In this document: one piece after another, positions 30,234 to 33,588 of the stretch
How the letters are laid out: every line of letters begins with the position of its first letter
How positions within the stretch are numbered: the first letter of the stretch is position 1
Assembly: GCF_011762185.1 (NCBI RefSeq)
Contig: NZ_JAASQJ010000002.1
Span: forward strand, 806,001-870,000
DNA: 64,000 nucleotides
Direction: 5' to 3'
Source: Dyadobacter arcticus
Lineage (GTDB): Bacteria > Bacteroidota > Bacteroidia > Cytophagales > Spirosomataceae
The notes under the pieces: model-generated
Databases searched by the model: none
Seen by the model: only the letters and a program-made list of their open reading frames with translations
Told to the model about the DNA's origin: nothing
Program-made: the position numbers and the translations under genes

Positions 30234-31262
30234 TCATAGCCATTTATTCTCTTTATACCATGATAGTGTTTCTGTAAGTCCTTGCCGAAGATCATATTGC
30301 GGCTTGTATTGCAGGTTATTCCTCGCGGCATCAATGCTACAGATCCAGTTCGGAGCTGTCAGTTCCTTTAATTTTTCCCTGTTAAGTAGCGGTGTCGCAG
30401 ACGAAAATGTGTAGAGCGCATCCAGCATTCCCGCCATCATTTTTACAAGCATCATTGGAAGGTGTGTCCTGAAAATCTGCTTCCCGCTGATTTCCCTGAA
30501 ACGGTCGGCCAATGCGTAACGGTCGTAGGCATTTCCATCGGAAATATTGTAAACGGTAACTTCCCGGTGATTTTCAGCCAATGCAGCCATGGTGGCATCC
30601 ACGAGGTCTTTCACATACACAAAACTCAATCGCTGCGGTCCTTTGCCGATATATGCATCCAATCCACTATTCAATGTCTTGAACAATACAAACAGGTCTT
30701 TTTCTCCCGGACCGTAAACAGCCGTGGGACGGATAATGCTGAGCGGCAAACCGCTCACCTGTTCGAGGTAATGCTCTGCCAGTAATTTACTCTTGCCATA
30801 TTCGGTTACCGGAATTGCAAGGGTATTTTCTGTAATGGGTTGTTCCTCAGCGTAAGCCAGTGGCCCTATTGCCGCAAGGCTGCTCAGGAAAACAAATCGT
30901 TGCAGTGGAATATCCGACGACATGGCTGCCTGGGCTAAGTTCCTGGAGTAGTCGGCATTGACCAGGTTGTAAGCCGCGGCACCTTTGGCCTTGGTAACAC
31001 CCGCTGCGTGAATGATGTGCGTGTACTTTCCTTCTTCCAACAATATTTTCAACGCCTCCTTTGAACTGAAGTCCGTATTCACAAAAACCAACTTTGTCTC
31101 CGAACCTTTCTTGGTCCAGACAGCCTGTAGTTTTTTCAGGAAGGTCAGGTCACTTGTTGGTCTCACCGCCGCATGCACTTCCATGCCGGCATTAAGAGCA
31201 GCTTCTACCAGGTGATAACCTATGAACCCACTTGCGCCGGTGATGAATACCCTCTCTTTCAT
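30234..31262 (-). CDS. NAD-dependent epimerase-type reductase, candidate ceramide reductase (CerR)
   Basis: A 342-residue extended short-chain dehydrogenase: cofactor motif FITGASGFIGYHLVE at residue 5, catalytic Tyr-x3-Lys in EYGKSKLLAEHYL near 168, and IIRPTAVYGPG. In Caulobacter a gene of this superfamily (CerR) reduces the 3-keto group of the sphingolipid backbone after acylation. Here the gene overlaps the upstream acyltransferase by four bases (ATGA), and that gene in turn overlaps serine palmitoyltransferase, so this reaction is the most likely role. The C-terminal hydrophobic patch around residues 270-290 may aid membrane contact. Confidence 0.8.
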   Translation of the reverse strand: MKERVFITGASGFIGYHLVEAALNAGMEVHAAVRPTSDLTFLKKLQAVWTKKGSETKLVFVNTDFSSKEALKILLEEGKYTHIIHAAGVTKAKGAAAYNLVNADYSRNLAQAAMSSDIPLQRFVFLSSLAAIGPLAYAEEQPITENTLAIPVTEYGKSKLLAEHYLEQVSGLPLSIIRPTAVYGPGEKDLFVLFKTLNSGLDAYIGKGPQRLSFVYVKDLVDATMAALAENHREVTVYNISDGNAYDRYALADRFREISGKQIFRTHLPMMLVKMMAGMLDALYTFSSATPLLNREKLKELTAPNWICSIDAARNNLQYKPQYDLRQGLTETLSWYKENKWL

Positions 31263-32380
31263 ATCAGTTTTTCGTACATTCTGTATCGTTTGTACAGCTT
31301 TCCGTTAATTTGTTCGATGGCGTGGTTCATTAGATAGTTGTCTTCCAGCATCCAGGAACATTCACCTCCTGTAATTTTGGTGCCTTCTGTATTCTTAATG
31401 ATCCTGCCATACAAACACGCTTCAATTCCCATTTTGCGATAACCTTCGATCACGCCAAGCGTAATTACTCTCAGACGGGTGATATTTTTCTTGCCAAAAA
31501 GCAGTTTGAAAATGCCGGTTGGCAATAAACGGCCCTTCTTGATTTTGATCTGTATCTGGTTGATATCCGGAATTCCGAGTATAAATCCAACCAGTTTGTC
31601 ATCCTTTTCAGCAACCAGGCAAAATCTTGGATCCAATATCATTTTCAGGTCTTTCGCGAGATAGTCGAATTCATGTTCTGTCATCGGAACGAAACCTTGA
31701 TTTTTATCCCATGCAGAATTATACACTTCCCTGATCTTCACCACTTCATTCTTGAAATCCTTCAGATTAATCTGGCGGATCGTAATGCCACTCCTTTGCA
31801 GCCTGGTTTCCAATGCGTCGATCATCTTAATAGACCGGTCGCTGGCGGTATTGGTATTGATTTCGTAAGCCAGCAAATCCATTTTCTTAGCCAACCCGCT
31901 ATTTTCTACCAGCTGCTGGTAGTAAGGCGCATTGTAAGCCATCATGGCCATTGGAGGCCTGTTGAAGCCGTCAACTAAAAGTCCGCTGGTTTCATTTGTC
32001 GACAAATTCACCGGGCCGATCAATTTCTTTGCCCCTTTTTCTTTCACCCAGGAAGTGGCTGCGTTCAACAACAAGTCCACTGTTTCCTGGTCGTTAATGG
32101 TATCGAAGAAGCCAAAAAAACCGTCAAGTTCATTGGCAAAAGCATTATAGTTATTGTTGAAAATCGCTGCAATGCGTCCTATGATCTTGCTATCGTCATA
32201 CGCTAAAAAAAGCTTAATTTCTGAATGCTCATGAAAGGGATGCTTTCCCGGTGTAAGCATATCTTTTTGCGCGATGAACAGTTCAGGAACATAATTTTTA
32301 TCGTTTTGATAAAGACTATGCGGGTAATCAATGAACGATGCAAGTTCTTTGGAGGAGTTTACAGGTACTATTTTCTTCAT
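31259..32380 (-). CDS. GNAT-superfamily acyltransferase, candidate bacterial ceramide synthase
   Basis: A 373-residue cytoplasmic protein with an N-terminal GNAT-like half ([24 protein letters not shown], about residues 70-130) and a second acyltransferase-like half ([36 protein letters not shown], about 265-345). The second half shows an R-x-MGIEA segment similar to the acyl-CoA binding loop. As I recall, the Caulobacter ceramide synthase bCerS belongs to this acyl-CoA N-acyltransferase superfamily and is encoded near spt and cerR. Here the ATG at 32380 overlaps the SPT stop as ATGA, and its own stop overlaps the reductase start the same way. That makes N-acylation of 3-ketosphinganine the best hypothesis. 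The TTG at 32413 is rejected as start. Confidence 0.78.
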
Positions 32381-33588
32381 AGTTGTTGTCTTTCTCTGAT
32401 CGCTTCGGGACAAACCTCACGGTAGATTCGGGCCATCTTATCAACTGCTTCTTCAATCTGGCTGAAAGTGTGTGTGGCCATTAAAGAAAAACGGATCAGA
32501 GATTGTTCAGGACGAACGCCTGGCGAAACCACTGGATTAACAAAAACCCCTTCGTCCTGAAGACGTTTGGTCATGATAAAAGTCTTCTCGTTGTCCCTGA
32601 TGTAAAGTGGTAGGATCGGGCTTTCCGTTTTACCCAGGTCAAAGCCGTTCACCAGCAAAAGCTCTTTGGCATACCTAGTGTTGGCCCAGAGCCGCTCCAT
32701 ATGGTGCGGTTCCGACTCGATAATATCCAACGCCGCCAATGTGCTGCCCACCGAGGAAGGTGTCATACTGGCGCTGAACATCAGCGACCGTGCGCGATGC
32801 TTCATGTAATCGATCACGGCTGCATCCCCTGCAATGAAACCTCCTAACGAAGCCAACGATTTGCTAAAAGTGCCCATAATAAGGTCAGTGGCGTCTGTCA
32901 AGCCGAAATAGGAGGCAGTTCCCGCGCCCTTTTCCCCTATTACGCCGAGGCTGTGTGCATCATCCACGAGCACCGTCGCATCAAATTCAGCCGCGATCAC
33001 AGTTAGCTCAGGCAACGTAACAATGTCGCCCTCCATACTGAAAATCCCGTCCGTCGCTATCAGCTTGTCTGCTTCTTCCGGAAGAAGGCTTAGCTTTTTA
33101 CGAAGATCAGTCATGTCATTATGGGCATACTTGATTACTTTGGAAAATGACAACCTGCTCCCATCAATGATGGATGCATGATCGCTTTCATCGAGTATCA
33201 GATAATCATTGCGACCGGTGAGACATGATAATGCACCCAAATTCGCCTGATACCCAGTACTAAAAAGAATTGCGTCCTCCTTACCAGTAAATTTGGAAAG
33301 CCTGCGTTCAAGTTCTTCATGAATGTCTAGCGTTCCGTTCAAAAAACGGGAACCAGCGCAGCCTGTACCATATTTCTGAGCCGCCTTTTGAGCAGCTTCG
33401 ATAATGTATGGATGGGAAGTGAGTCCCAGATAGGAATTCGACCCGAACATCAGGACCGTTTTTCCGTTTATGATAACCTCTGTATCCTGTCCGGATTCGA
33501 TAGGTCTGAAAAAAGGATATACTCCCCTTTCCCTTGCCGCTGCCGGATCTTTGAATTCAGCAATGCGATTGTTTAATTTTTTACCCAT
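32377..33588 (-). CDS. spt: serine palmitoyltransferase
   Basis: A 403-residue PLP enzyme of the alpha-oxoamine synthase family condensing serine with a fatty acyl-CoA to 3-ketosphinganine. Long stretches agree with the Sphingobacterium enzyme as I remember it: [88 protein letters not shown] and the PLP-Lys segment [13 protein letters not shown] near residue 245. These favour SPT over 2-amino-3-ketobutyrate ligase or BioF. It is first of an ATGA-coupled trio. A 502-base non-coding region with a short palindrome shared with the TetR leader lies upstream. Confidence 0.93.

Follow-up and report, generated by a model that had tools for sequence, protein, structure and literature searches.

A stretch of 64,000 nucleotides from the 6.04 Mb genome of Dyadobacter arcticus (contig NZ_JAASQJ010000002.1, positions 806,001 to 870,000; hereafter the window, in whose coordinates positions are given) carries three overlapping minus-strand genes that very probably make up a translationally coupled operon supplying the ceramide backbone. 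They encode a serine palmitoyltransferase (SPT), a tandem GNAT protein predicted to be a bacterial ceramide synthase (bCerS), and a short-chain dehydrogenase/reductase (SDR) of the NAD-epimerase type predicted to be a ceramide reductase (CerR). All three open reading frames (ORFs), proposed in a preliminary description of the window, were confirmed in place, and ATGA was read at both junctions, in agreement with the 4-base stop/start overlaps described there, so that the intergenic gaps within the trio are -4 and -4. The GNAT protein has 373 residues from the overlapping ATG, while an in-frame TTG further upstream would give 384. The same description regarded the operon as compact, which holds for the three overlapping genes but is too narrow for the locus, since the trio heads a longer co-directional run. 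As a whole, the region is best explained, with good though slightly lower confidence, as a ceramide operon heading a co-directional run with probable inositol-headgroup genes. Gene identities at family level, gene order, conservation and co-occurrence were read from sequence, whereas the catalytic activities are all inferred.

Evidence for the predicted ceramide genes

The SPT protein scores 716.1 bits against the NCBIfam equivalog NF047600 (Bacteroidota SPT), above the curated cut-off of 640, and its previously noted closeness to the Sphingobacterium enzyme is borne out by a phmmer E-value of 2.9e-187 to 3a2b. The residue that separates SPT from the homologous cysteate acyltransferase (CFAT, SulA) is Lys281 in SulA and Ala in SPT (PMC9304779). 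In the alignment, Ala273 of the window protein occupies this column, which holds Lys in 21 of 21 CFAT-type proteins, one from the same genome and 20 fetched. Together with the NF047600 score, this residue identifies the protein at 32377-33588 as an SPT by sequence, with serine rather than cysteate as its predicted substrate. One genome of the genus holds a second SPT above the NF047600 cut-off (G022:C2:36937-38118, 704 bits).

For the GNAT protein, Pfam gives a weak Acetyltransf_1 match and nothing stronger, and no NCBIfam model matches. In a tblastn search of plasmid sequences it was matched in 45 records, among them E. coli YghO, with 37% identity over residues 1-373, the full length (E 1.1e-75). 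The YghO gene cluster comprises SPT, acyl carrier protein (ACP), epimerase, fatty acyl-AMP ligase and YghO itself, and the legend to Figure 9 of PMC9386255 groups yghO with the Caulobacter ceramide synthase gene CC_1154, called cerS in PMC11324152. Because CC_1154 and CCNA_01212 are each named as the Caulobacter CerS, we infer that the two are the same gene. Around its GNAT homologue, Rubrobacter has the exact order SPT-GNAT-epimerase, Streptomyces has the same order with 4-base overlaps, and Pseudomonas veronii and Sphingomonas have SPT and epimerase homologues near the GNAT gene. No SPT was found within the stretch shown around the GNAT gene of a Roseomonas record, nor among the annotated neighbours of the Bacteroides finegoldii GNAT gene. 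The best match in a named genome was that of Dyadobacter luticola (81%), in a listing that may omit records of the own genome. On a linear Streptomyces plasmid (L041 6757-11283), the overlapping SPT-GNAT-epimerase genes are followed by a condensation-domain gene.

An AlphaFold2 model of the GNAT protein (mean pLDDT 89.4, 39 sequences) has tandem GNATs as its best structural matches, MAB_4324 (7q3a) giving Z = 24.8 and 3.1 Å over 301 residues, which agrees with the earlier wording “double-GNAT-like”; the comparison with N-myristoyltransferase 1nmt gave Z = 16.0. Such fold likeness alone proves no function, and identity to the solved tandem GNATs, none of which is a ceramide synthase, is about 12%.

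The third gene matches PF01370, contains GASGFIG and YGKSK in its translation, and is 27% identical to the epimerase of the E. coli ceramide cluster (E 1.8e-31). Better-scoring NCBIfam names such as HpnA remained far under their own cut-offs. E. coli, Streptomyces and Rubrobacter are among the organisms with homologues near SPT or GNAT genes. When ORFs of 230 residues or more in the fetched loci were compared, 95 of the 96 epimerase matches with at least 60% coverage stood near an SPT or GNAT gene, the remaining one being weaker (62 bits versus at least 110). Since most of these loci were chosen by GNAT and some overlap, so that proteins are counted repeatedly, this count reflects conservation and is no independent test.

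In the proposed pathway, SPT would make 3-ketosphinganine by condensation of serine and a fatty-acyl thioester, the tandem GNAT would N-acylate this intermediate, and the NAD-dependent SDR would then reduce the 3-keto group to yield dihydroceramide. Acylation before reduction is favoured by analogy with Caulobacter, in which the order of the steps is debated (PMC11087976). A eukaryote-like order, in which the SDR first reduces 3-ketosphinganine and the GNAT then N-acylates sphinganine, would require the same genes; it has been put forward for Caulobacter by another group (PMC11324152), and B. thetaiotaomicron possesses a known 3-ketosphinganine reductase (PMC9278070). That enzyme, BT_0972, was however chosen by its likeness to the yeast and human ones, whereas Caulobacter cerR mutants accumulate oxidised ceramide and CerR is periplasmic (PMC11087976). 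The gene order SPT-GNAT-SDR also agrees with acylation first, as weak evidence. Reduction first is a serious contender, although the less probable of the two orders.

Conservation, co-occurrence and GNAT clades

The trio was found in the same order in 12 of the 12 genus loci returned by search, the own locus included. Among 80 named loci, which are the best 80 of 545 confirmed GNAT matches and over-represent close relatives, neighbours being counted within the fetched flanks, 66 have SPT-GNAT-epimerase, 7 have SPT-GNAT and 7 have GNAT alone; the trio-bearing loci belong to Dyadobacter, Runella, Sphingobacterium, Pedobacter, Mucilaginibacter and others. The 4-base overlap is kept between SPT and GNAT in 32 of 73 loci and between GNAT and epimerase in 55 of 66. 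That the order is retained in the genus loci and in most of the named loci is more than would be expected by chance.

At genome level, 35 of 37 genomes of the genus (own included) carry both an SPT above the cut-off and a GNAT match of at least 66%. Neither gene is present in the other two, G025 and G029, which retain a CFAT-type gene with the diagnostic Lys. Across 296 Bacteroidota genomes, 222 have SPT and a strong GNAT match, 3 have SPT only, 3 GNAT only and 68 neither, in a hand count from two per-genome tables that ignores kinship and uses cut-offs set after viewing (for GNAT E <=1e-110, the next weaker value being 1.7e-99; for SPT E <=1e-119, followed by about 3.7e-105). The GNAT profile (A1) contains a B. 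finegoldii protein, and Bacteroidales-type GNATs hence score as strong. In G085, G101 and G116 the SPT and GNAT genes lie far apart on the chromosome, so that linkage is not the sole cause of their co-occurrence.

Several observations weigh against the proposed backbone operon. The GNAT gene stands without an adjacent SPT in 7 of the 80 named loci, and the joint loss in G025 and G029 may represent one deletion, the genes being neighbours. Six of the 296 genomes are discordant, with SPT only in G350, G082 and G273 and GNAT only in G124, G135 and G347, the last of which is an 88% complete genome. Inspection by eye of the ORFs of 80 residues or more (an ACP can be shorter) between 27 and 37 kb revealed neither an ACP nor an acyl-ACP ligase gene, in contrast to the E. 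coli cluster, which has them. Finally, the deep forks of the GNAT tree are supported at 38/4, so that the tree places the protein in the family and does not prove orthology with the proteobacterial enzyme. Clustering with unrelated acetyltransferases, named beforehand as a refuting outcome, was not seen among its sequence relatives.

That the GNAT protein acetylates some other amine and merely travels with SPT is highly improbable: the weak general Pfam match, the missing NCBIfam model and the low identity to solved tandem GNATs would allow it, but the two genes co-occur across the 296 genomes even where they are far apart, and the E. coli homologue belongs to a full ceramide cluster, with a similar layout around that of Pseudomonas veronii. 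The SPT model and residue, the homology and fold of the GNAT protein, the homology of the epimerase, the cross-phylum gene order and the co-occurrence jointly support the earlier proposal that the three genes supply the ceramide backbone. The accompanying identification of the GNAT protein as “the Bacteroidota ceramide synthase” is supported as an assignment, but its definite article is too strong, as the tree contains at least three GNAT clades within Bacteroidota, and the B. fragilis reference genes for CerS and CerR (BF9343_4218 and BF9343_4240), which share the named functions and the phylum of the window genes, are already in print (PMC10865984).

Window-type Bacteroidota GNATs, most of which are neighbours of SPT, form a group with Rubrobacter (support 97/90), and a CFAT-linked GNAT clade is separate with a support of 100/100. 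Among the order-level relatives G037-G058 (n = 22), none has an SPT above the cut-off; 20 combine a GNAT of 25-30% identity with a CFAT-type match of 270-308 bits (by eye), and Lys was confirmed in 17 of these. The low identity of these homologues had raised the suspicion that the window GNAT was imported from Proteobacteria. Import, though conceivable, is not needed, because most of them belong to the other, CFAT-linked clade and relatives of 51-81% occur in many other Bacteroidota. A profile of the second clade (alignment A5, GNATs of 14 loci between L020 and L036) was matched at E <=1e-130 in 33 of the 296 genomes, with an NFGERDxWWGLL-like stretch, and all 33 belong to the set of 108 genomes whose CFAT match reaches 460 bits. 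The second clade may supply the capnine N-acyltransferase of some Bacteroidota. No second-clade match was obtained in 75 CFAT-bearing genomes, the own genome among them.

The own genome encodes, on another contig than the SPT, a 423-residue CFAT/SulA-type enzyme with the diagnostic Lys (L003 1456-2727; G000:C6:259057-260319), and the organism may make sulfonolipids in addition to sphingolipids. A sulfonolipid function of the operon itself, with a CFAT as first enzyme and the GNAT N-acylating capnine, is highly improbable: cysteate enzymes are homologous to SPT and common in and around the genus (CFAT-profile match of at least 460 bits in 70 of 73 sampled genomes from the own, family, order and class levels), but the Ala/Lys site and the separate CFAT-type gene led to the rejection of this reading, and the two SPT-less Dyadobacter genomes also lack the GNAT, yet keep the CFAT-type gene.

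The downstream run and a possible headgroup pathway

Behind the trio, the minus-strand run continues with gaps of at most 124 bases through genes for a DUF5686 protein, a nucleotidyltransferase, a RimK-like protein, a CDP-alcohol transferase, a lysylphosphatidylglycerol (LPG)-synthase-type transmembrane protein, a HAD hydrolase, a PfkB kinase and a DUF4833 protein (Table 1).

Table 1. Positions of the predicted ceramide genes, their junctions and neighbouring genes in the window
Feature	Position	Strand	Evidence and remarks
Serine palmitoyltransferase (SPT), 403 aa	32377-33588	minus	NF047600; match to Sphingobacterium SPT 3a2b; Ala273
Tandem-GNAT protein, predicted bacterial ceramide synthase (bCerS), 373 aa	31259-32380	minus	YghO homology; fold; SPT co-occurrence
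Extended SDR / NAD-epimerase, predicted ceramide reductase (CerR), 342 aa	30234-31262	minus	PF01370; neighbourhood; motifs
ATGA stop/start overlap, SPT/GNAT	32377-32380	minus	SPT end ...CTATGA; GNAT start at same ATG
ATGA stop/start overlap, GNAT/CerR	31259-31262	minus	GNAT end ...ATATGA; epimerase start at same ATG
DUF5686 / carboxypeptidase-regulatory-like protein	27574-30141	minus	PF18939, PF13715; downstream in 43/80 loci; 33% to B. finegoldii
Nucleotidyltransferase, predicted for CDP-inositol or other CDP-alcohol	26833-27546	minus	PF12804, PF00483; 46% to B. finegoldii
RimK-like protein	25887-26762	minus	Weak RimK-family match; 50% to B. finegoldii hypothetical protein in same place
CDP-alcohol phosphatidyltransferase	24959-25894	minus	PF01066; 54% to B. 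finegoldii, same place
LPG-synthase-type transmembrane protein, possible flippase (guess)	23956-24978	minus	PF03706; 36% to B. finegoldii
HAD hydrolase	23153-23863	minus	PF00702; 35% to B. finegoldii, 50% to Parabacteroides
PfkB kinase, predicted myo-inositol or other cyclitol kinase	22187-23095	minus	PF00294; TM0415 match; acceptor residues
TetR-family regulator	34091-34825	minus	Upstream of SPT; PF00440; homologue in 4/80 loci, all Dyadobacter or Runella

In B. finegoldii (L183), the corresponding row reads DUF5686, inositol-3-phosphate synthase (MIPS), nucleotidyltransferase, hypothetical protein, CDP-alcohol transferase, LPG-synthase transmembrane protein and HAD. Six window genes match this order, and the MIPS gene is absent from the window. 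The nucleotidyltransferase, CDP-alcohol transferase and HAD genes occur together as in the putative alternative inositol-lipid cluster of Bacteroides and Prevotella (PMC9246714); the identities in Table 1 refer to B. finegoldii proteins, not to the B. vulgatus ones of that paper. Relative to the alternative cluster, the window lacks MIPS, adds PfkB and has the ceramide trio in front. In Parabacteroides, four of these genes stand in a row, with no MIPS within the stretch shown. The RimK-like protein, which has no Pfam match, is conserved between the nucleotidyltransferase and the CDP-alcohol transferase in Dyadobacter, Bacteroides and Parabacteroides; its start codon was picked by eye and the searches covered 25887-26708, the longer form shrinking the preceding gap.

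For the PfkB kinase, the best match among solved structures is TM0415 (E 4.8e-29), a pyrophosphate (PPi)-dependent myo-inositol kinase (PMC5931981). As read by eye from the HMMER alignment, the TM0415 acceptor residues D11, N78, Q141 and R145 correspond to D13, N80, Q142 and R146 in the window protein, while the PPi signature K171, F221, R229, R232 and M266 is replaced by K, Y, A, C and I, so that four of the five are not kept and PPi was rejected as the phosphate donor. The retention of the acceptor contacts and the loss of the PPi residues make an ATP-dependent cyclitol kinase likely.

Based on these families, PfkB would phosphorylate inositol, the nucleotidyltransferase would produce CDP-inositol, the CDP-alcohol transferase would attach phosphoinositol to the lipid, and the HAD and membrane proteins would finish or move the headgroup lipid. 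On balance, the evidence leans slightly towards downstream genes that make and attach a phospho-inositol headgroup via a CDP-alcohol route. Several results weigh against the inositol part. PMC9246714 itself describes the functions of the alternative cluster as unconfirmed. The window, the own genome and all 41 genus genomes searched gave no MIPS match (the control was detected in 5 of 14), and neither did the same-family genome G246, which carries the same cluster. PfkB, present in 39 of the 41 genus genomes, is not a strict substitute for MIPS, as it also occurs in 5 of the 8 MIPS-bearing genomes tested.

The candidate role of PfkB as a strict MIPS replacement is weakened accordingly: of 11 genomes tested, both genes occur in 5 (G309, G270, G155, G317 and G091), MIPS without PfkB in 3 (G147, G286 and G294), PfkB without MIPS in 2 (G246 and G305), and neither in G060, which has the ceramide trio and thereby also speaks against a simple swap.

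The lack of MIPS in the own and genus genomes would also suit a headgroup other than inositol, such as another cyclitol, a polyol or a sugar phosphate, or diacylglycerol instead of ceramide as the acceptor; the nucleotidyltransferase and CDP-alcohol families act on many substrates, and the HAD protein is just 35% like that of B. finegoldii. Against this stand the order and the six gene families, which agree with the B. finegoldii inositol cluster, and the TM0415 inositol contacts retained in PfkB, and we consider this alternative plausible while giving it less weight than a phospho-inositol headgroup. That the one locus encodes all steps that turn serine and fatty acid into inositol-phosphoceramide, without MIPS and with PfkB acting on headgroup inositol from outside, can only be proposed tentatively from the gene content. 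If true, the headgroup would depend on external inositol, for example plant or phytate inositol, and the trio would show that the substrate lipid of the unconfirmed alternative inositol cluster is ceramide.

Other trio loci carry different genes in this place. MIPS was found in 40 of the 80 named loci and PgpA in 31 of 80, within the fetched flank. In L179 (7138-18245), SPT, GNAT, CerR, MIPS, PgpA, GtrA, DUF5686, CDP-alcohol transferase, DUF4833, fatty-acid hydroxylase and PAP2 genes follow one another; L180 (7205-17381) is similar without CerR. The Dyadobacter-genus locus L177 (2691-12516, G004 group) has the trio, PgpA, GtrA, DUF5686, CDP-alcohol transferase, DUF4833, fatty-acid hydroxylase and PAP2, and in its genome (G004) there is no MIPS and the PfkB gene lies on another contig. 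Pfam was run for L179 and L177 among such relatives. The families of the B. thetaiotaomicron inositol cluster BT_1522-BT_1526 thus lie behind the trio in L179 and partly in L177 and L180, whereas the window has no MIPS or PgpA match. With the alternative module, two kinds of predicted headgroup module therefore share one place behind the ceramide genes.

Relation to known systems and surrounding features

The ceramide genes of Caulobacter and E. coli B comprise SPT, AcpR, AasR, CerR (CC_1164) and CerS (CC_1154/YghO). The window shares with them an SPT, a GNAT of the same family and an NAD-epimerase-type reductase, and differs in its Bacteroidota-type SPT, in the overlap of three genes in one unit and in the kind of genes that follow. 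The one Bacteroides GNAT compared, that of B. finegoldii (29% to the window protein), belongs to another clade. According to the legend to Figure 1 of PMC9246714 (2022), the sphingolipid reactions past SPT were not characterised in Bacteroidetes, and a passage of PMC11334938 (2024) states that SPT, bCerS and CerR are not encoded near each other in sphingolipid-producing Bacteroidota, citing its reference 38, presumably the 2022 Caulobacter paper on convergent evolution. Contrary to that statement, the three genes adjoin here and in Sphingobacterium, Pedobacter, Mucilaginibacter, Runella and others. Such linkage is not described in the passages of PMC12724326, PMC10056535, PMC10191378, PMC10865984, PMC11334938 and PMC9386255, and no claim is made that it is unpublished. 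The trio is regarded as the known pathway in compact form; what is regarded as new is its union in one locus with an alternative inositol module lacking MIPS. Furthermore, the trio loci, which include named cultured strains, provide a set in which both the ceramide steps and the unproved alternative inositol pathway can be tested.

With regard to expression, no match to a Bacteroidetes-type promoter (TTG, 17-21 bases, TANNTTTG) was found in the 18000-36000 stretch of the minus strand. Sigma-70-like promoter sites numbered 30, versus 30.1 in shuffles, and terminators 10, versus 14.3. A tie between the TetR-family regulator and the ceramide operon is a guess. Further along the minus strand, at 20013-21487, a class I methyltransferase gene and a PEMT-like gene share a 4-base overlap, for which a role in phospholipid methylation is possible.

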